Shown here in pieces: positions 19,611-48,228 of a stretch of 64,000 bases of DNA (position 1 is the stretch's first letter; each line of letters begins with the position of its first letter). Under the pieces are notes generated by a model. The model saw only the letters and a program-made list of their open reading frames with translations. It had not been told where the DNA came from and did not search any database. A program made the translations under genes and the position numbers. The DNA lies in contig OY294049.1 of assembly GCA_958510825.1 (NCBI GenBank), positions 1,364,001 through 1,428,000 of the forward strand, in the 5' to 3' direction. This DNA is from Brachypterus glaber (lineage: Eukaryota > Arthropoda > Insecta > Coleoptera > Kateretidae).

Positions 19611-20155
19611 ACTAAACAAACTAATTACAGATGATTATGATACCGAAATATAAGTAACTAAACATTTACGATAACGTACGTCATCGTCCTTCGAGCCATT
19701 TTTAGGTTTAAAGAATCTGGAGAATTTTTGTACTTCAAATATAATTTTTTTATTAATTATATTTTAATTATGTTTTAAATTTAAATTAAGGCTGTATAAA
19801 AAAAATTACCCAAAATTGTGTATGTTAAACATATAATTAAAATTATATATTAATTATACATATGTATACGTTCGAAAACCGTAATTGTACATCAATCAAA
19901 ATCTATTAAACAAACTGTTGTGATTATTGATTTACATGGTTCGCAAAACCAGTTTCGAAGATTACTGTAATTAAGAAACGTGATTGAAAATTGACTTATT
20001 AATTTACTTTCTTGACAATATCTTCTTAAATTGTACCTAAACCGATAATGCTTTATACAGGATGATCCTAAAAAAGGTTACGTTACATGTGGAAGCACAT
20101 TATATTTTTTTAAATATGTAAATCAGTTTCATGCAGTGATGTCAATAACAACTTT
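19611..20155. other. AT-rich DNA, nothing recognised
   Basis: Low-complexity sequence; ACAGGATGATCCTAAAAAAGG near 20058 is another dispersed-repeat end without a visible partner. Confidence 0.35.
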
Positions 20156-20291
<136 letters not shown>

Positions 20292-20336
20292 AGCGAATTT
20301 ACGGTCTAGAGGATATGTTTATATCGATGGTCTAGC

Positions 20337-20350
20337 GTACAAAGGTGCTA
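20337..20350. repeat. 14-bp target-site duplication at LINE 3' end
   Basis: GTACAAAGGTGCTA, identical to 26304-26317. Confidence 0.9.
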
Positions 20351-20365
20351 GTAGTAGTAGTAGTA
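20351..20365 (-). repeat. TAC-repeat 3' tail of the LINE
   Basis: Five GTA units on the plus strand directly abut the target duplication. Microsatellite tails instead of poly(A) are common in the I superfamily. Confidence 0.8.
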
Positions 20366-20443
20366 AGGGTGGGGAGGCTACAAGCCAGGCAACTAGGCCA
20401 TTATGGCCCTTTTTGCCAGCCCCGAGCTGTCCCAGCCACACAT

Positions 20444-23400
20444 CTACCCTACTCCCTGCCTAAACCTGCCGGACCTCCTTATAAAGGTCGCGATATCTGT
20501 CCAGGCAAGGGTACGCAACTCCTCTCTTCGGAGAGTTGCCACTCCGAAGATCTCCTGTCGTATTCTGCCGAACCGATCGCATTGTCCTAGGAAATGGAAG
20601 GACGATTCTTCGTCTATCCCGCAACCCGAACAGACGGGGTCGTTACCAACCTTCATCTTGAACAGGTGCCTTCCTAGTCCACAGTGACCCGTGAGGATCC
20701 CTGTGAGTTGGCTGATCGTGGCTCGGCTTCTTCCTAGTAGCCACGCGGTTTTTGACTTGCTTGGACCGGAAAGGAAGTCCTTTGCCTGTCTGCAGTTCGT
20801 GACCGTTGACCAGCTTTCCCTTAGTTTTTCTCCAGCCCACGTGTTGAGGGCTGATGTGACTTGTTTCCTTGTAATACCAAGCATGGGTTCGGGTCCCATG
20901 CACGGAGTTTCGGCTCCGAGCCTGGCAAGTTCGTCTGCCTTCTCGTTGCCTGGTATCCCGCTGTGTCCAGGGACCCATACAAGGTGGACTCTTTTGTTCC
21001 TCGCTAGCTCCTCCAGGGCTTCTATGCATTCCTGCACAAGACTGGATCTTGTGCTGGGTGCACTGAGAGCCTTCAGGGCTGCTTGGCTGTCGGAGCAGAT
21101 GTATACATCTGATCCGTTGCTCCCTAGAACCTCTTCGCATCTTGCCGCTTCCTGTATCGCAAAGACTTCCGCTTGGAATACCGTGGGGTACCTGCCGAGC
21201 GAATAGCTCTTTTGAACCCCCGTGTCTTGTACAAAGAAGCCTGCGCCCGAGCTTTGCGTGCTTTCCATCCGGGAGCCGTCTGTATAGCACACTGTTGCGT
21301 TTTGGGCAAAATTAACTTCCTTGTTCTCCCACTCGTGTTTTGTTGGTATAGTGAGAGAGAATGCTCTGTCAAACCTTAATCGGTCTTCCGCCTCTATCAC
21401 CTTGATGCTGCTGATAGGTAACTCTACTCTGGCAACATCGGCGATTTTTGTATGTCCGTAGACTGCCCCTTCACCCAGCCAGCATCCAACATCTCTCATT
21501 CTAAGGTAGCTAGCCATTGCCTCCCTCCTTATCCAGGACGGAAGCGTTGGCAGCCCCAGTAGAACTTCCAGTGCTGATGTGGGGGTCGTCCTGATTGCGC
21601 CGGTGATCCCGAGACACGCTAGTCTTTGGATCTTACTCAGACTCCGAGCTACTGTGGTTTTGCTGACGCTTGGCCACCATACCACCGAGCCATATTGGAC
21701 TCTGGGTCTAATGACGGCGGTATAGATCCATAATAGAATCTGTGGGGTCATGCCCCAGCTTTTTCCCACTGCCCGACGCAAGTGCCAGAAGGTCGCAATC
21801 GACTTGTCAATGACTTTGTCTACATGCGCCTTCCAGTTGAGTTTACTGTCTAGGGTTACTCCCAAGTACTTGACCTCTTGTGAGAGCACAAGCGGTTTTC
21901 CGTACATTTGGGGGGCCCTAAAGTTCTCTATCTTTCTCCTATTGGTAAAGAGGATAAGCTCAGTCTTTGTTGGGTTGACTGATAAGCCTTTTTCCTCACA
22001 CCACTCTTCTATTATCCTGCAGGCTGTCTGGATTCTTTCACAGACCGTGCCCAAGAACCTTCCAGTGACTAGGACCGTGCCATCATCTGCAAATGCTTGT
22101 GCGTATAGCCCAGCGGCCGTCAGCCTCTCTAGGAGACTGTCCATAACTAGACACCATAAGTGAGGTGAAAGACAACTGCCCTGTGGACATCCACCCCTCA
22201 CCCCGATGTCCAGACGACAGTCCCCCAGAGAGGCCATGACATTCCTTTCTACCAGCGCAGATCTTACCCAACTAACCAGCGCTGGCGGGGTGCCCCTCGC
22301 TAATAGCGCACCGCAGATGGTTGACGTTCTTGCCCTGTCGAATGCTCCCTCTACGTCAAAGAATATGGCCAACGCCCATTCTTTGTGGTGTAACGCCTTT
22401 TCGACTCTTCGCACTATAGCGTGGAGGGCCGAGTCTGTCGACCTGCCTCGCCTATATGCATGTTGTCCTCTATGGAAAGGATGCCTGCTAAGCACTCCTT
22501 CCATCAGGTACCGGTCCACTATCTTTTCCAGCGTTTTCAGCAGGAAAGATGTAAGGCTTATTGGTCTGAAGGATTTGGCGGTTGTGTAATCCTTCCTACC
22601 CGGTTTGGGGATGAAGACCACTCTCGCCCTCCTCCATTCCTTTGGAACATATCCCAGCGCCAGGCTGGCCTTAAAGATCCTCTTCACGCTGGGAAGAACG
22701 ATCTCTATGCCCGCCTGGAGTAGCGCTGGGAATATGCCATCCGGTCCTGCTGCCTTGTATGGGTCGAACTCTTTCACCGCCCATTTGATCGCGCCGTCTT
22801 TGATAACCTCCTCGGCCAGTTGCCGGTCCCCTCCTGGGAGGGGACCCTGCTCTACCTCGGGGTTATCTTGTTCGACGCTTTCACCGGGAAAGTGAGTCTC
22901 CAGCAGTAGTCTTAAGGACTCTTCGCTGGAGGTGGTCCAACTCCCATCTTGTCTCTGTAGCGAGCCTACCGATTTATTAGACGTGCCGCTAAGAATTTTC
23001 ATCAGCCTTGCAGAATCCGACAGTGACTCCATGTCTCCGCAGTATTTCCTCCAGCTTTGTTTCTTGCTTCGTCTAAGCTCCTTTTTGAAATCCCTTCTCA
23101 CCCCTCTATACCTATCCCATGAGGACTCTGTGTCTTCCCTAAAGGCTTGGTTGAATGCCCGCCTACACTCCTTGCGCAGGGTGTCCAGCGTGCCATTCCA
23201 CCATGGGACCTTTCGGTCCTTGGCCTCCCTGAGTGGACAAGCCTCCTCATAAGCTGAGATTATGGTATTATTTAGAGTGGTGACCTCTTTGTCTAATTGT
23301 TCCTCTGTGAGTATCTCACTGTCTGAATCCCAGTTATGACTTTTGAGCTGGGAGAGGTAATTCTCCCAGTCCGTTGCCCTTGGGTTTCTTTTCATGATTG

Positions 23401-24088
23401 GATCGGGTTTGTCCGACCTTAACTCAAATCTTACCATTCGATGGTCCGACATGGTTATGTCCGACGACACCCTCCAATTCAAAATGTTCTCTGATAGAGT
23501 GATAGATACCAGCGTTATATCAATCACCTCCTTTCGGACTCGATTGACAAATGTTGGCTCCTTCCCTCTATTCATTATCTCTAAATTGGTCGATGCTAGG
23601 TACCCCAACAAGGTTTCCCCCCTAGGGTTTATACCCGTGCTTCCCCACACCACGTGGTGTGCGTTCGCGTCGCAACCGATAATTACTGGTAGGCGCTGTT
23701 CATTCGCGAATTCCACCAGGCTCACTAACTCCCTCGAGGGAAGTACGCCTTCGTACGGCAAATATAAGCTACCCACCACCACCTTATGACTAATGCCTCT
23801 TACCTTGTGCTCCAGAATAGCTGCCGTTACATCCTTGGTGCCCAGCTGGGTCAATGGAACCACGTTCAGCTCCTTAGATGCCAGGATACATGTTCTGATG
23901 TGTTCGTCCTCTTTGCCAACTATAATTTTATAGCCGGCTGCACCTAACCCCCTTACGTTGTTCCTGTAAACATAAGGTTCCTGTACCAATACGATCTCGC
24001 CTACCTTGTTAGCAAGAGCGCTCACCAGTTCCCCAGTTGCACTCTTGCTATGCTGTAGGTTGATCTGGCTTACCTTTAACGCCGCCAT
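20444..24088 (-). CDS. LINE ORF2: endonuclease, reverse transcriptase, RNase H
   Basis: The protein has about 1214 residues and copies the element RNA into the genome. Numbering here starts at the ATG at 24088. The N-terminal apurinic-type endonuclease shows N10, QEP with E37, CDAN with D140 and SDH at 214-216. The reverse transcriptase has FFDVEGAFD (motif A, D578), GGCPQGS (motif B) and FADDG (motif C, D668-D669). The RNase H has YTDGS (D937), AEVFAI (E974), SDSQAA (D1000) and EKADE (D1052). A C-terminal CxxC-H-C motif lies at 1153-1170. All expected catalytic residues are present. The frame is open up to a GTG at 24100, but that GTG directly follows an in-frame TGA, so ATG at 24088 is the likely start. 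Translation probably depends on reinitiation after ORF1, whose stop is 35 bp upstream. Confidence 0.95.
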   Translation of the reverse strand: MAALKVSQINLQHSKSATGELVSALANKVGEIVLVQEPYVYRNNVRGLGAAGYKIIVGKEDEHIRTCILASKELNVVPLTQLGTKDVTAAILEHKVRGISHKVVVGSLYLPYEGVLPSRELVSLVEFANEQRLPVIIGCDANAHHVVWGSTGINPRGETLLGYLASTNLEIMNRGKEPTFVNRVRKEVIDITLVSITLSENILNWRVSSDITMSDHRMVRFELRSDKPDPIMKRNPRATDWENYLSQLKSHNWDSDSEILTEEQLDKEVTTLNNTIISAYEEACPLREAKDRKVPWWNGTLDTLRKECRRAFNQAFREDTESSWDRYRGVRRDFKKELRRSKKQSWRKYCGDMESLSDSARLMKILSGTSNKSVGSLQRQDGSWTTSSEESLRLLLETHFPGESVEQDNPEVEQGPLPGGDRQLAEEVIKDGAIKWAVKEFDPYKAAGPDGIFPALLQAGIEIVLPSVKRIFKASLALGYVPKEWRRARVVFIPKPGRKDYTTAKSFRPISLTSFLLKTLEKIVDRYLMEGVLSRHPFHRGQHAYRRGRSTDSALHAIVRRVEKALHHKEWALAIFFDVEGAFDRARTSTICGALLARGTPPALVSWVRSALVERNVMASLGDCRLDIGVRGGCPQGSCLSPHLWCLVMDSLLERLTAAGLYAQAFADDGTVLVTGRFLGTVCERIQTACRIIEEWCEEKGLSVNPTKTELILFTNRRKIENFRAPQMYGKPLVLSQEVKYLGVTLDSKLNWKAHVDKVIDKSIATFWHLRRAVGKSWGMTPQILLWIYTAVIRPRVQYGSVVWWPSVSKTTVARSLSKIQRLACLGITGAIRTTPTSALEVLLGLPTLPSWIRREAMASYLRMRDVGCWLGEGAVYGHTKIADVARVELPISSIKVIEAEDRLRFDRAFSLTIPTKHEWENKEVNFAQNATVCYTDGSRMESTQSSGAGFFVQDTGVQKSYSLGRYPTVFQAEVFAIQEAARCEEVLGSNGSDVYICSDSQAALKALSAPSTRSSLVQECIEALEELARNKRVHLVWVPGHSGIPGNEKADELARLGAETPCMGPEPMLGITRKQVTSALNTWAGEKLRESWSTVTNCRQAKDFLSGPSKSKTAWLLGRSRATISQLTGILTGHCGLGRHLFKMKVGNDPVCSGCGIDEESSFHFLGQCDRFGRIRQEIFGVATLRREELRTLAWTDIATFIRRSGRFRQGVG

Positions 24089-24123
24089 TGATGGGGTCAC
24101 TCATGGGGCGTGGTTGGCAAAAC

Positions 24124-25599
24124 TTATGTGGTCCGCTGGGGGCCGCTCGCGCCCGAGGGGCCGCGGCTGACAACTCCGCTCCAAGATGTGACCTTCCTTA
24201 CGGAAATAGTCATCAGCTCGAAGCACAGCTGCCAGCTCGCCCCCTCTAGGCGCCTGACGGCGTCCCTTTCTACCACAAAAGTGAGGAACCAGTCTCCTGC
24301 CTCTCCCGTCGTCTGGATGTGACGCCATCCCTCGATGTTGAGCGAGGGATTCTGGAAAGCCATCAGCCTCTTCACCTTGCCTAGGTCCAGCTCTTTCTTC
24401 CTTAGCCAGAAGCCTACCTTCTCCGGCCATGGAGCATCGGCTGCCGCCACCTTGGTGAAGGCAACCCCCTCCAGGGTCGGAGTTGGCCAGGTTTCCAGCA
24501 GCCAGCGCTTTGTTGGCAGGGTCATGGTCGTTATCAGGAACCAGCCGGGAAATACCACGCCTGAGTTCCTGAATCTGAGGGGACCCACAGGGGGAGTTGC
24601 CTCTATAGCCCTGAACATCTCCTCCACCATGCTCGCCCTCAAGCGCTCTGCCTCTTCGGGCGTAACCTTACCGTCCTCCCTATCCGACCTTATTACCACC
24701 TGCAGCTCCTTCTTCGAAGGGTCCTCGGTGGTTTCAGGATCGGACATTTGCGTCGGCGCGTTACCCTCTCCCCTCTCCAGGGAGGAGACCTGATGGCGTG
24801 TGCCACCCTCCCCTCTATGGAGAGGCGAGACGTGCTTGCGCTTTCCGCCGTTGGGAGGGGTGCGGTAGTGGTTAGGCCTTTTCCTTGAGCTACCTGGAGG
24901 TGTTTCTTTGTCTGTCCTCAGTCTCTTTTTGCTCGCCTCTGGCTTAGAACTGGAGGTTCCTTGGAGCCTCCTTTCCTCGCCTCGGGCGGACGCCGGAGCC
25001 GTTGGCAGCGCAAAGAGCTTCTTGGCCACTCTCCTTTCGTTCCTGGCTGATGGACCTCTCCCTTGAGTTTGGCTAGGTTTCTGAGGGACCGGTTGCCTTA
25101 CCGCTTCCTGTATGCCCTCATGTGAGCAGCCAGGTCGCGGTACTGGCGTCGGTCTCCTAAACCCTCCGTCCGGTTTTTGGGGGTCGCCGCACCCTCCAAC
25201 AGGCTTACTTCCCCCAGTGGGGATATCCGCCTGTGGAGCGCCTTCGGCTTGCCCAGTCCCCGTCGCAAGGCTGGAGCTAGAGGCGGCAGCGTTACTTTGC
25301 TGCTCTCCTTCTCCCTCCTTGGCCATCCTCTTCTTCTCCTTCCTTCTTTGGAACTTCCTCCTCTGCTTCTCTCTTTGGTTCTCCTTCTTCCGAAGTGCCG
25401 CCGCTTCAGCTGCTTCCCCGGCCGCCCCATCGAGGTTGGTGTCTTCGGACGTCTTCCTCGGTGACCCAGCTGGGGAGTTAAGGAGTTTTTCCTCCTCTAC
25501 CGCGTCTATCTCGTGTCCGTCGGACGTCTCCATAGAGTTGAGGAACTCTGTTTCCTCTTTTTGTGGCACTATCTTTTCCATATTTTCGTTTTGATTCAT
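24124..25599 (-). CDS. LINE ORF1: Gag-like RNA-binding protein
   Basis: The protein has 491 residues from the ATG at 25599 (MNQNENMEK). ORF1 proteins of this group coat element RNA and bring it to the nucleus. The N-terminal third is acidic, followed by a very basic Lys/Arg/Glu segment (about residues 60-105) that could form a coiled coil, then a proline-, serine- and arginine-rich linker. The C-terminal 200 residues, from about ELQVVIRSD to the end, look folded and resemble the DUF4780-type domain of insect LINE ORF1 proteins; this match is from memory. No CCHC zinc knuckle is visible, which is unusual for Jockey/R1 Gag. The frame stays open upstream to a GTG at 25953, but the ATG gives the more protein-like start. 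Confidence 0.85.
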   Translation of the reverse strand: MNQNENMEKIVPQKEETEFLNSMETSDGHEIDAVEEEKLLNSPAGSPRKTSEDTNLDGAAGEAAEAAALRKKENQREKQRRKFQRRKEKKRMAKEGEGEQQSNAAASSSSLATGTGQAEGAPQADIPTGGSKPVGGCGDPQKPDGGFRRPTPVPRPGCSHEGIQEAVRQPVPQKPSQTQGRGPSARNERRVAKKLFALPTAPASARGEERRLQGTSSSKPEASKKRLRTDKETPPGSSRKRPNHYRTPPNGGKRKHVSPLHRGEGGTRHQVSSLERGEGNAPTQMSDPETTEDPSKKELQVVIRSDREDGKVTPEEAERLRASMVEEMFRAIEATPPVGPLRFRNSGVVFPGWFLITTMTLPTKRWLLETWPTPTLEGVAFTKVAAADAPWPEKVGFWLRKKELDLGKVKRLMAFQNPSLNIEGWRHIQTTGEAGDWFLTFVVERDAVRRLEGASWQLCFELMTISVRKVTSWSGVVSRGPSGASGPQRTT

Positions 25600-26303
25600 G
25601 GCTAGAACAAAGTTGTGTGCTAGTATTTGTGTAGTGTGTAAGTGTGGGCATTCGATAGGGCGTGGATCCCCCCCTTTCCATCGAATGACTCGCGGGCGCT
25701 CATCCTTAGTGAGAAGTCTGGCGGCCGCTTTTCCCCTGGTGAAGCCCCCCGGAAGTGTGCAGCGGGTCCTCAACCAGGCGCTACCTGGAGCCGCTGCACA
25801 CCCCAAGATTATACACCGACTTATAGGGCGGCCCCCTACGCTAGCTAGGCAAGGGTGGGCCCCTTTCATCGGCGGCACAGGCGTGCCTGACCTGCTTATT
25901 TCACCGCTACCATTCCATCGTGACTTCCCTCTAAAGTAGCCTCCACGAGCCACCCTACGGGGGTGGAGTAATCCCTACCCTCCCGACCCACGTGTGTGTG
26001 TGTGTGTGTGTGTGTCAGTGTGCGTGTGTAGTGCTTGTAAGATATGTGTGTGTTTTTTACGGGAATTTGATCCCCAACCAGTTTTGGTCCGCCTCGGGCC
26101 CTAGTTCACCCCGCGGCCTCAAATCATTGATGAGAGCTGGCTGGGGCTTCCTCCGGGATAGCCGTGGACCCCAGCCATCTCAAACCAACAACCGAATAGC
26201 CCGTTGTGCAGTGCCCGACTCTCGCCAAGTATTGTCTGACGAGCCGATCCCCTATCCGCCACCTGGGGAGGCGCCCGATGGAGGACTGGAAGCCCCACAC
26301 GGG
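25600..26303 (-). promoter_or_regulatory. 5' untranslated region and probable internal promoter of the LINE
   Basis: This 704-bp GC-rich stretch starts with a short hairpin (CCCC-GTGT-GGGG) at the 5' terminus and contains a (GT)n run on the plus strand at 25991-26014. Full-length LINEs carry an internal promoter at the 5' end; its presence here is inferred from position. Confidence 0.5.
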
Positions 26304-26317
26304 GTACAAAGGTGCTA
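26304..26317. repeat. 14-bp target-site duplication at LINE 5' end
   Basis: GTACAAAGGTGCTA, identical to 20337-20350. Confidence 0.9.
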
Positions 26318-26389
26318 AGTATATAGGGAAACCTTATGTATTTATATAAAACATTTTACTATTCCTTAAAACGACTTTTGTTTGATTAA

Positions 26390-26474
26390 CGCAGTCGTCC
26401 CTCCGAAGTGACTGATCGATTTCGTGCTTTTTAGCACTCTTCAGAGCCACATATCGGTAGTAGGGACAACTACG
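26390..26474 (-). ncRNA. Type I hammerhead ribozyme, copy 1
   Basis: Read 5' to 3' on the minus strand: outer stem I CGTAGTTGTCCCT, bulge ACTA, CCGA, internal loop TAT, GTGGCT, core CTGAAGA (26438-26444), stem II GTGCT-AAAA-AGCAC, GAAA (26420-26423), minimal stem III with UCGA, cleavage triplet AUC, then AGTCAC, T, TCGG, AGGGACGACTGCG. The last blocks pair with the first ones (6, 4 and 13 bp, including G-U pairs). Every conserved core base is present. Predicted cleavage lies between 26414 and 26413. Confidence 0.9.
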
Positions 26475-26825
26475 AAAATCAAATCCTTTCCATATATCTC
26501 TATATAGAGTTTAAAAATCGTTGTAAGGAAAAGCAAAAACAGCTAGCGACATCTACTGCTAAAAGCAGAGACTGGATAAACCTATCGACAGTCCAAAAAA
26601 GGAAGCAGTTATTGGTTTCAATAACCTATTGCACGCTGTCGATAGGGGGCAGATTAATCAATGCCACGGTGGACATTGCTGCCAATTAAATCCTAAACGC
26701 TAGGAGGTCACCCTTTACAGTGGTATCTGAATTAATAAACTAAATTAAATTGTTTGATATTTACAAATTTAAAAAATCTATATAAAACATTTTACTATTC
26801 CTTAAAACGACTTTTGTTTGATTAA

Positions 26826-26910
26826 CGCAGTCGTCCCTTCGAAGTGACTGATCGATTTCGTGCTTTTTAGCACTCTTCAGAGCCACATATCGGTAGTAGG
26901 GACAACTACG
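26826..26910 (-). ncRNA. Type I hammerhead ribozyme, copy 2 (stem I variant)
   Basis: As copy 1, except that the plus strand reads CCCTTCGAAG instead of CCCTCCGAAG. This changes TCGG to TCGA in the ribozyme and breaks the outermost pair of the 4-bp middle segment of stem I. The catalytic core is unchanged. Confidence 0.88.
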
Positions 26911-27261
26911 AAAATCAAATCCTTTCCATATATCTCTATATAGAGTTTAAAAATCGTTGTAAGGAAAAGCAAAAACAGCTAGCGACATCTACTGCTAAAA
27001 GCAGAGACTGGATAAACCTATCGACAGTCCAAAAAAGGAAGCAGTTATTGGTTTCAATAACCTATTGCACGCTGTCGATAGGGGGCAGATTAATCAATGC
27101 CACGGTGGACATTGCTGCCAATTGAATCCTAAACGCTAGGAGGTCACCTTTTACAGTGGTATCTGAATTAATAAACTAAATTAAATTGTTTGATATTTAC
27201 AAATTTAAAAAATCTATATAAAACATTTTACTATTCCTTAAAACGACTTTTGTTTGATTAA

Positions 27262-27346
27262 CGCAGTCGTCCCTCCGAAGTGACTGATCGATTTCGTGCT
27301 TTTTAGCACTCTTCAGAGCCACATATCGGTAGTAGGGACAACTACG
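27262..27346 (-). ncRNA. Type I hammerhead ribozyme, copy 3
   Basis: Same core, stems and cleavage triplet as copy 1; predicted cleavage at 27285/27286. Confidence 0.9.
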
Positions 27347-27697
27347 AAAATCAAATCCTTTCCATATATCTGTATATAGAGTTTAAAAATCGTTGTAAGG
27401 AAAAGCAAAAACAGCTAGCGACATCTACTGCTAAAAGCAGAGACTGGATAAACCTATCGACAGTCCAAAAAAGGAAGCAGTTATTGGTTTCAATAACCTA
27501 TTGCACGCTGTCGATAGGGGTCAGATTAATCAATGCCACGGTGGACATTGCTGCCAATTGAATCCTAAACGCTAGGAGGTCACCCTTTACAGTGGTATCT
27601 GAATTAATAAACTAAATTAAATTGTTTGATATTTACAAATTTAAAAAATCTATATAAAACATTTTACTATTCCTTAAAACGACTTTTGTTTGATTAA

Positions 27698-27782
27698 CGC
27701 AGTCGTCCCTCCGAAGTGACTGATCGATTTCGTGCTTTTTAGCACTCTTCAGAGCCACATATCGGTAGTAGGGACAACTACG
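27698..27782 (-). ncRNA. Type I hammerhead ribozyme, copy 4
   Basis: Same core, stems and cleavage triplet as copy 1; predicted cleavage at 27721/27722. Confidence 0.9.
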
Positions 27783-28133
27783 AAAATCAAATCCTTTCCA
27801 TATATCTCTATATAGAGTTTAAAAATCGTTGTAAGGAAAAGCAAAAACAGCTAGCGACATCTACTGCTAAAAGCAGAGACTGGATAAACCTATCGACAGT
27901 CCAAAAAAGGAAGCAGTTATTGGTTTCAATAACCTATTGCACGCTGTCGATAGGGGGCAGATTAATCAATGCCACGGTGGACATTGCTGCCAATTGAATC
28001 CTAAACGCTAGGAGGTCACCTTTTACAGTGGTATCTGAATTAATAAACTAAATTAAATTGTTTGATATTTACAAATTTAAAAAATCTATATAAAACATTT
28101 TACTATTCCTTAAAACGACTTTTGTTTGATTAA

Positions 28134-28218
28134 CGCAGTCGTCCCTCCGAAGTGACTGATCGATTTCGTGCTTTTTAGCACTCTTCAGAGCCACATATCG
28201 GTAGTAGGGACAACTACG
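28134..28218 (-). ncRNA. Type I hammerhead ribozyme, copy 5
   Basis: Same core, stems and cleavage triplet as copy 1. This is the first copy met by minus-strand transcription; predicted cleavage at 28157/28158. Confidence 0.9.
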
Positions 28219-28427
28219 AAAATCAAATCCTTTCCATATATCTCTATATAGAGTTTAAAAATCGTTGTAAGGAAAAGCAAAAACAGCTAGCGACATCTAC
28301 TGCTAAAAGCAGAGACTGGATAAACCTATCGACAGTCCAAAAAAGGAAGCAGTTATTGGTTTCAATAACCTATTGCACGCTGTCGATAGGGGGCAGATTA
28401 ATCAATGCCACGGTGGACATTGCTGTC

Positions 28428-28929
28428 AATAATACCTCAACAACTTTCATTAGTTTTTGCTAATCCTAAAGGATAGTAATTAAAAATCACTGCTGCCAGA
28501 AAAAAAATCATTTTGCCTATAATTTAATTTAATTAAAACCACAAAAAACCTAAATTTTCAAAAAAAAATATACAAAAAAATATTTAAAGAAATACAAGAT
28601 AAGCATGTATTAATTTTTGTAGCCCATTTCTAAATAAACCTGTATCATAATTATAATATTCTGTTTAACATTTTACAAATAATTCTATCTTAGATATCTA
28701 TAAATAATTTATTTATTTCGAGTACGTTTGATCTAAGCTTTTATTCGTTAATCGTAATTATTATATATTATTTAAATTATATGTAATTATATCTAAAGTA
28801 ATTCATTATTATTTACTTATTTTCAATTATCCTTAAGTATTGTATCTAGTAACTTTATGATACAAAATTATATGCTATTATTATTGAATATAGAATGTAG
28901 ACGATTCCAAGGAAATGTCAGTAAGTTGC
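28428..28929. other. AT-rich DNA upstream of the ribozyme array
   Basis: Minus-strand transcription of the array would enter from here. No TATA box or pol III A/B boxes stand out in the A/T background. Confidence 0.35.
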
Positions 28930-29505: not shown

Positions 29506-29569
29506 TTCAGGGATTCAAAATGCAAAAGTTGCATATTTCACGAAAGGGTGGGGACCTTTTTTTTAGTCA

Positions 29570-30165
29570 TTAACTTTTTTGTCGAAGAAAAAAGTTGCAT
29601 ATTTCAGGGATTCAAAATTCAAATGTTGCATATTTTAGGGATTTAAAACACAAAAGTTGTTCAATATTTTTTTTTTAGTTCTTAACTTTTTTGTCGAAGA
29701 AAAAAGTTGCATATTTCAGGGATTCAAAATTCAAATGTTGCATATTTTAGGGATTTAAAACACAAAAGTTGTTCAATATTTTTTTTTTAGTTCTTAACTT
29801 TTTTGTCGAAGAAAAAAGTTGCATATTTCAGGGATTCAAAATTCAAATGTTGCATATTTTAGGGATTTAAAACACAAAAGTTGTTCAATATTTTTTTTTT
29901 AGTTCTTAACTTTTTTGTCGAAGAAAAAAGTTGCATATTTCAGGGATTCAAAATTCAAATGTTGCATATTTTAGGGATTTAAAACACAAAAGTTGTTCAA
30001 TATTTTTTTTTTAGTTCTTAACTTTTTTGTCGAAGAAAAAAGTTGCATATTTCAGGGATTCAAAATTCAAATGTTGCATATTTTAGGGATTTAAAACACA
30101 AAAGTTGTTCAATATTTTTTTTTTAGTTCTTAACTTTTTGTCGAAGATAAAAGTTGCATTTTTAG
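29570..30165. repeat. 112-bp tandem array, about five copies
   Basis: Units with GTCGAAGAAAAAAGTTGC recur at 29581, 29693, 29805, 29917, 30029 and 30140, spaced 112, 112, 112, 112 and 111 bp. Each unit includes TTGCATATTTCAGGG and TTGCATATTTTAGGG, so it is itself an internal duplication. The flanks (GGGGACCTTTTTTTTAGTC at 29549; CTACGGCCCTG at 30213) resemble hAT-type ends, so the array may be the expanded interior of one such element. Confidence 0.8.
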
Positions 30166-47376: not shown

Positions 47377-48228
47377 CACAGGCCCACAAAATAAAAAAAG
47401 TGGTCTTTGCTGGGGTTGAGACCCACCTACTCTTATGTATTTTGGGATGCTGAACACGAATCTGTCATAAAAAAAGGCACTTCATGAGCTCATTTCTTTG
47501 CTACACTGAAAAAACTGTCTAAAATAGTAAAAATCTCATATTATTTCAGTGTAACAAAAAAATGAGCCATTAATGTGCATTTTTTATGACAGATTCTTGT
47601 TCACCATCTCAAAATACATAAGAATAGGTGGGTCTAAACCCCAGCACAGACCACTCTTTTTTTTGTGGCCCCAGACAGTTTTTCCAGTGTAGAAACAAAA
47701 ATGAGCTTATGAAGTGCCTTTTTTATGACAGATTTGTGTTCAGCATCCCAAAATACATAAGAATAGGTGGGTCTCAACCCCGGCACAGACGACTATTTTT
47801 TTTTTGTGGGCTCATAATGTTTTTTCAGTGTAGAAAAAAAATGAGCCGATGAAGTGCCTTTTTTATGACAGATTCGCGTTCAGCATCCCAAAATACATAA
47901 GAATAAGTGGATCTCAACCCCAGCACAGACCACTTTTTTTTTTGGGCCCAGACAGTTTTTTCAGTGTAGATACAAAATAAGCCCATGAAGTGCTTTTTTT
48001 ATGGCAGATTCGTGTTCAGCATCCCAAAATACAAAAGAATTCGTGGGTCTTAACCACAGCACAGACCACTTTTTTTTGTGGGTCCAGACAGTTTTTTCAG
48101 TGTAGAAATAAAATAAGCCCACGAAGTGCCTTTTTTTATGACAGATTTGTATTCAGCATCCCAAAATACATAAGAATAGTTAGGTCTCAACCCCAGCACA
48201 GCCCACTTTTTTCTTTTGTGGGCCTGTG
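47377..48228. mobile_element. CACTA-like element with internal tandem repeats
   Basis: Starts CACAGGCCCACAAAA and ends TTTTGTGGGCCTGTG, flanked by TAA at 47374-47376 and 48229-48231. Behind the left end is one inverted copy of a repeat (to about 47520). About five direct copies follow at 136-141 bp spacing, each with TTTTTCAGTGTAGA, TTTTTATGACAGATTC and CAGCATCCCAAAATACATAA. Reading frames through the array are by-products. Same TIR family as 3780-4005 and 43978. Confidence 0.75.

Follow-up and report, generated by a model that had tools for sequence, protein, structure and literature searches.

The non-LTR (long terminal repeat) retrozymes of animals, in the main parts of Cervera and de la Pena (2020, PMC7229834), are non-coding tandem units of a few hundred base pairs with a type I hammerhead ribozyme; they are dispersed and non-autonomous, with a G+C content below 45%, a self-paired RNA and target duplications longer than 4 bp. 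What mobilises them is left open there, between long interspersed nuclear elements (LINEs) and Penelope-like elements (PLEs), with PLEs named "a strong candidate". Our subject is a 64,000-nucleotide stretch of DNA from the beetle Brachypterus glaber (contig OY294049.1, positions 1,364,001 to 1,428,000), called the window in what follows, and the array of 436-bp hammerhead-bearing units within it. Genome-wide comparison supports the array as one copy of a young hammerhead retrozyme family, dispersed in the beetle's own genome, that shares the features just listed. We put at about three in four the probability that the array was copied in trans by an endonuclease-containing Penelope-type enzyme priming two strands, the window holding only one of the two arms, which we call A.

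Penelope elements have been described both by their scars and by their chemistry. In the rotifer Adineta vaga, going by the parts of PMC3846280 used here, a typical Pen insert has direct pseudo-LTRs (pLTRs) and an adjacent inverted pLTR, head-to-head being the commonest inverted arrangement; a 31-bp tail is optional on one inverted pLTR, and target duplications are 8-10 bp. AT-rich DNA is the preferred target of the purified Anolis Penelope protein, PAc, which cuts both strands and extends each of them; reverse transcription begins at two neighbouring sites inside the RNA, and the 30-40-bp tail corresponds to the interval separating them (PMC11167929). In PAc the hammerhead cuts 26 nt into the open reading frame (ORF) and the main start falls at 111-118 nt, about 85-92 nt further on (PMC11167929).

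The array and its predicted ribozymes are laid out in the window as follows.

26343..28430, minus strand: retrozyme array, 436-bp units x 4.8, 5' end near 28430, A-type 3' end at 26343
28130..28217, minus strand: hammerhead 1, stem I extended; cleavage predicted 3' of C 28158; limits taken by analogy from the folded copy
27694..27781, minus strand: hammerhead 2; cleavage predicted 3' of C 27722; limits taken by analogy from the folded copy
27258..27345, minus strand: hammerhead 3; cleavage predicted 3' of C 27286; the folded copy
26822..26909, minus strand: hammerhead 4, a single substitution in stem I; cleavage predicted 3' of C 26850; folded
26386..26473, minus strand: hammerhead 5; cleavage predicted 3' of C 26414; limits taken by analogy from the folded copy

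An initial annotation, made from the letters alone, had called a tandem 436-bp repeat with five minus-strand hammerheads of conserved core, and both calls held up. Tandem Repeats Finder gives a period of 436, 4.8 copies and 99% matches over 26343-28430, which amounts, between the cuts, to four full units plus partial ends of 273 and 71 nt. A strict core-and-stem scan of the whole window found five type I hammerhead cores, all on the minus strand, all inside the array and with predicted cut sites spaced exactly 436; the same scan found none in 30 Markov-1 sequences of window length. Since the units are near-identical, these are one motif copied and not five independent ones. At unit position 68 two alleles alternate over the four full units (2/4 each), as a dimeric template would give.

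The 436-bp unit has 888 candidate places in its own genome (648 Mb, 842 contigs), of which the best 40 were scored. We classified 41 loci: the window and 40 fetched ones (L044-L083). Twenty-nine of the latter (L055-L083) come from the unit-search list and, with the window, represent 30 of its 40 scored places; the other 11 come from a search (best 40 of 402) whose query held the A end, so that an A end was guaranteed there. Thirty-seven of the 41 loci are inverted, with two arms whose 5' ends face each other and whose 3' ends point outward, that is, head to head. Their outer ends fall at two fixed places. The A end (...AAAATGTTTTATA) lies at unit positions about 435 to 2, some 68-71 nt past the predicted cut; the B end (...CAATTTAATTTAGTTTA) lies at about 42-45, about 43 nt beyond A and 111-114 nt past the predicted cut. 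Every inverted locus with both ends resolved has one A and one B (34/34), and 27 of these come from the unit-search list, free of the A-end bias; independent, equally likely ends would give one of each in about half of loci. L046, L048 and L054 are inverted with one end outside the fetched stretch, and are left out of the 34 as well as of the 38 loci used below for duplications. The four single-armed loci (the window, L052, L063 and L082) always end in A.

Arms are often longer than one unit (34 of 75), the longest reaching 2.6 kb. At 36 arm-to-arm junctions the two arms overlap by 1-11 nt in 21 cases, abut bluntly in 3 and are separated by extra bases in 12, although pieces below 94% identity were dropped, so that some joints appear longer or with extra bases. 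There is no more than a weak excess of arm ends at the 3' base of hammerhead stem I (6/72 against 2.5 expected, P 0.04). The hammerhead core is intact in 105 of 111 copies, the window's five included, which is why we regard the family as young. In one locus 304 nt of other sequence lie between the arms (L083:3372-3675), possibly captured or later inserted. The main parts of PMC7229834 contain no description of head-to-head arms that end at two fixed places, and we found no earlier account of them in retrozymes among open-licence titles and abstract openings, which is not proof of novelty.

The insertions are also marked in the DNA that received them. Exact target duplications of 11-18 bp flank 33 of the 38 testable loci, single-armed L052 among them, with lengths of 11 bp in 2, 12 in 13, 13 in 12, 14 in 3, 15 in 2 and 18 in 1; the element's own A/T-rich ends can lengthen these measures by a few bases. 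The other five, which show no exact duplication, are the window, L063, L082, L070 and L083; in the last two the boundaries were misplaced, by a stray piece and by the 304 nt between arms respectively. Of 66 duplication edges, 26 have GTT immediately on their outer side; for rough comparison, 5.8% of 5-base stretches of locus sequence contain a GTT. In the window the A end adjoins an 11-nt stretch and then GTT, as if the same type of site had been used and its other side lost. Like animal retrozymes, the family has target duplications longer than 4 bp and no LTR; the window copy has no duplication and is an aberrant one-armed insertion.

How good is the ribozyme? The initial annotation had proposed a covariance-model check, and its outcome is divided. 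No Rfam model matches the 64-kb window at gathering cut-offs, and Hammerhead_HH9 (RF02275) matches all five copies below its 52-bit cut-off, four at 28.4 bits (E 2e-4 in a 2.2-kb search, 0.006 in the window) and one at 25.3 (E 0.002 and 0.06, respectively). The fold of the 88-nt motif reaches -39.3 kcal/mol on the minus strand (z -6.7, with 0 of 200 shuffles equally good), against z -3.05 on the plus strand; for the variant unit z is -5.45. The predicted fold holds stems I and II, and three other pairs occupy the expected unpaired core and stem III. Stem I, first given as 6+4+13 pairs, is predicted at 6+4+12, and core position N7 is A. Stem III, read by eye, consists of a lone A-U pair under a palindromic UCGA loop; with it the predicted motif would have the three helices of a type I hammerhead, open at stem I and with stem III minimal.

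A one-pair stem III with a palindromic tetraloop is also found in the axolotl and newt satellite hammerheads, whose unit is about 330 bp against 436 here; the likeness is one of description, the best Rfam model being HH9 below cut-off. In the parts of PMC7229834 that treat the axolotl HHR_Amex1, its one-pair stem III goes with weak cleavage as a monomer and efficient cleavage as a dimer, so efficient monomer cleavage should not be assumed for the beetle unit. Folded as a circle (with a unit offset one base from the predicted cut site), the 436-nt unit reaches -135.3 kcal/mol against -87.8 +/- 5.1 in 60 dinucleotide shuffles (z -9.2), with 69% of bases paired and a G+C content of 36%. The array has no ORF of at least 120 aa; it is non-coding and, having no reverse transcriptase (RT) with GIY-YIG domain, is not itself a Penelope-like element. 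The earlier description of a retrozyme-like, non-autonomous element fits: the family is non-coding, dispersed and young, its tandem units, of roughly retrozyme size and with a type I hammerhead, are mostly flanked by target duplications, and its predicted RNA is strongly self-paired. At 436 nt, however, the unit stands at the upper edge of the animal range (RNAs of about 170-400 nt, repeats of 150-450 bp, in the same parts of PMC7229834). The hammerhead pattern had no match in viral contigs.

What served as template can be read from single-nucleotide polymorphisms (SNPs). SNP 159 is uniform in all 26 loci with at least two covering copies, including 11 of 11 where both arms cover it; SNP 101 is uniform in 20 of 21 such loci and in 6 of 7 two-arm loci. 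Both are subfamily markers. Across 12 polymorphic sites, 14 minor-allele locus-sites are homogeneous, where shuffling gives a mean of 1.3 and a maximum of 7 in 500. The 12-site analysis is confined to unit positions 52-430, with 96% identity as the lower limit for a piece; L056 is absent from the per-unit variant table and included in the shuffle, architecture and SNP 101/159 counts. Because SNPs are near-uniform within loci, the simplest reading is that each insertion had one template sequence, most easily a circle; multimers would also serve.

We can now say how such insertions might arise. Multimeric transcripts would be cut by their hammerheads and probably closed into 436-nt circles, as reported for other animal retrozymes. 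The insertion scars suggest that an endonuclease-containing Penelope-type enzyme uses this RNA in trans. In AT-rich DNA it would make two nicks, one per strand and about 12 bp from each other, frequently at GTT. Both nicked strands would prime the synthesis of complementary DNA (cDNA), one of them at RNA site A and its partner at site B, some 43 nt away. The two cDNAs would be extended back round the RNA, in many cases beyond a full turn, and their ends would be joined head to head, giving in order a target duplication, a B-ending arm, an A-ending arm and a target duplication. In the window the A arm alone would have been made, beside a piece of a miniature inverted-repeat transposable element (MITE); a LOA-type LINE later entered the same MITE.

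A Penelope-type enzyme is suggested because inverted arms, two fixed starts and a tail on one arm match published Penelope features. Endonuclease-containing Penelope elements likewise have head-to-head copies with an optional tail on one arm (seen here in 34 of 34 inverted loci with both ends resolved), target duplications and AT-rich targets, and, as with PAc (PMC11167929), a predicted hammerhead is followed by what would be reverse-transcription starts, here 68-71 and 111-114 nt past the cut. Unlike Penelope elements, the retrozyme encodes no protein, and its edge motif is GTT where PAc prefers ATT (PMC11167929).

Several observations pull the other way. The start site described in PMC11167929 is a stem-loop, whereas the A-to-B stretch here does not fold into a significant hairpin (z -0.3), and PAc shows no start-site difference between strands in vitro (PMC11167929), against the strict A/B pairing here. 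In the parts of PMC3846280 cited above, Pen1 has mostly direct pLTRs only and some copies without duplication, and the 8-10 bp of rotifer Penelope compares with mostly 12-13 bp in the retrozyme. The window copy is atypical of its own family, with one arm, no target duplication and the left half of its MITE missing. The template evidence has its exceptions too. L049 carries different SNP 101 alleles in its two arms, a mismatch outside the view of the 12-site analysis. In that analysis 15 minor-allele locus-sites are mixed (shuffle mean 51), and the two-arm locus-sites with a minor allele divide into 7 concordant and 7 discordant; all 7 discordant ones involve alleles confined to two or three loci each, an alignment gap accounts for one of the seven, and later mutation may be their source. 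Mixed units occur in L074, in L083 and at window position 68 (2/4), and arms made from multimers would fit them.

That last point leads to the alternative of two-strand priming on uncut, multimeric linear transcripts in place of circles, which we think unlikely but worth keeping in view. It would account for those three mixed-unit loci and for arms of up to 2.6 kb, and hammerhead cleavage is unnecessary for Penelope insertion in vitro (PMC11167929). The two subfamily SNPs, uniform within nearly all loci and across both arms where testable, speak against it, even if such uniformity is still compatible with multimers transcribed from already uniform arrays.

A further alternative concerns the neighbour of the array, an intact LINE on the same strand and 39 nt downstream. 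Its named relatives include a Lian-type protein, which we take to belong to the LOA clade, hence "LOA-type". The surrounding features are these.

20351..26303, minus strand: LOA-type LINE, a bystander; later insertion into the MITE
24124-25599, minus strand: LINE ORF1, DUF4780
about 20444-24100, minus strand: LINE ORF2, with endonuclease, RT and RNase H domains
26304..26317, no strand: LINE target duplication, 5' copy, 14 bp, TAGCACCTTTGTAC read on the minus strand
20337..20350, no strand: LINE target duplication, 3' copy; its first two bases could be the LINE's CTA tail
26304..26342, minus strand: MITE piece directly adjoining the retrozyme A end, from a dispersed palindromic MITE
20323..20350, minus strand: second piece of that MITE copy, beyond the LINE
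28439..28451, no strand: 13-bp direct repeat AACAACTTTCATT, right copy, flanking the whole nest
20147..20159, no strand: 13-bp direct repeat AACAACTTTCATT, left copy, flanking the whole nest

Among the best 40 of 402 candidates, 18 other copies reach the LINE's 5' end, all starting within window positions 26300-26310 and 12 at 26303; the natural 5' end reads CCCGTGTGGGG. At the 3' end, all 39 other scored matches (best 40 of 1358 candidates) stop at 20340-20349; the window LINE ends in a CTA-type stretch, and these 39 stop in or just beyond it. In the 5' region 13 of the 18 other copies are at least 99% identical to the window copy, and such near-identity implies that the LINE was recently active.

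Could an APE-type (apurinic/apyrimidinic endonuclease) LINE, LOA-type or other, have moved the retrozyme by L1-like twin priming, with no Penelope enzyme at all? The recent activity of the LOA-type LINE (14 of 19 copies at 99% or more, counting the window) and its 14-bp duplication, near the retrozyme's 12-13 bp, would suit such a role, and twin priming is known for L1. L1 inversions, however, are a minority with variable second priming sites, whereas 37 of the 41 loci here are inverted and all 34 resolved ones use the same two starts. The CTA-type stretch that ends this LINE, in the window and in 39 of 39 scored copies, has no counterpart at the retrozyme's A and B ends. We consider this explanation improbable.

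The ribozyme of R2 and similar LINEs is of the HDV-like (hepatitis delta virus) type. The retrozyme resembles R2 and other ribozyme-bearing LINEs, as they appear in the parts of PMC7761336 we draw on, in having a self-cleaving ribozyme, here predicted, in a retroelement RNA; it differs from R2-type LINEs in that the ribozyme is another one and the adjacent LINE is unrelated to it.

The LINE and the array met by way of the MITE. A search with the two LINE flanks joined gave 39 other scored places (best 40 of 249 candidates), every one of which runs straight through the LINE insertion point. Of five MITE copies read (L092-L096), three clearly continue upstream with the half missing from the window; the MITE is about 80 bp and palindromic (from L093 and L094), with an inner part ..TAAGTACATAAGGTTTCCCTATATACTTAGCACC.. 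The retrozyme therefore ended up in the MITE and the LINE inserted later, 39 nt away, in the same MITE copy. Because those 39 nt are MITE and the LINE has its own duplication, there is no need for a LINE-retrozyme chimera, and a template-jump origin of that kind was dropped. A (TAA)n(GAA)n tract accompanies the 13-bp outer repeat on one side; the repeat may be the trace of an older insertion that ended in this tract and has since been mostly replaced, or simply a duplication. Of 39,871 random pairs of 30-nt stretches of the window, 15 share at least 13 nt.

Relatives of the LINE were absent from viral contigs and, with a single-protein query, from prokaryote genomes. With an alignment query the prokaryote genomes gave one LOA-type LINE and four weak RT matches; none of these five loci held a hammerhead core in a loose scan, which for the first covered only 1676 bases before the match. 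That first locus (L001) is a gammaproteobacterial metagenome-assembled-genome contig (JAAERX010000049.1) with a LOA-type LINE ORF matching query residues 1-1209, at 43% identity in the best segment. It is likely animal contamination in that bin.

Self-priming, in which one cDNA folds back and copies itself into an inverted repeat, is discussed for Penelope in the portions of PMC3846280 already cited; for the retrozyme we find it very doubtful. A fold-back would have both arms begin at the same place, and they do so within 3 nt at 4 of 36 inverted junctions; the other 32 join different unit positions (a few junctions, L051, L064, L079 and L081 among them, are complex, and their positions vary with the choice of weak pieces kept). 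Nor would a fold-back put the second outer end at a fixed other start site, as found in 34 of 34 loci.

An ordinary satellite grown by unequal crossing-over, the ribozyme being incidental, is scarcely credible. The initial annotation did call the array a satellite, and the units are tandem and homogenised; the label does not fit loci that are mostly dispersed two-armed insertions (37/41) with fixed ends and 105 of 111 hammerhead cores intact, and the exact target duplications refute it as a full account. We give next to no credence to the array being tandem 5' untranslated region (UTR) promoter monomers of the adjacent LINE: the two do share one strand, lie 39 nt apart and sit within a 13-bp direct repeat outside both, but none of the 18 other LINE copies that reach the 5' end carries the array, which refutes the idea for this LINE family, the LINE has its own duplication, the intervening 39 nt are MITE, and the retrozyme makes insertions of its own at other loci.

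The window holds other repeats. A 326-bp x 5.8 tandem array at 304-2188, its copies 99% alike, has no hammerhead in the strict scan; by eye, imperfect inverted repeats (CAACAAACTAATAACT.. / ..GTTGTTAGTTCGTTG) form the ends of its units, and related sequence occurs in the flank of L049. Tandem arrays at 29557-30163 (112 bp x 5.4) and 47544-48218 (136 bp x 4.9) likewise have no hammerhead in the strict scan.

Copying by a Penelope-type enzyme in trans may be taken one step further, tentatively and at somewhat less than even odds: a Penelope-type dimer would use both of its reverse transcriptases at once on one small circular ribozyme RNA. Each strand would have its own start site, both enzymes would roll round the same circle, and the cDNA ends would then be joined. 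If so, the strict rule of one A and one B would reflect start sites assigned to strands in a coordinated two-strand insertion on one RNA, and animal retrozymes would have a mechanism for their mobility. A young family scarred in this way makes Penelope mobilisation of animal retrozymes a testable claim. Its strict end pairing is a constraint for models of Penelope insertion and speaks against self-priming as the source of inverted repeats, and its insertions would be footprints in vivo of the two-start-site, two-strand reaction observed in vitro with one Penelope protein (PMC11167929).

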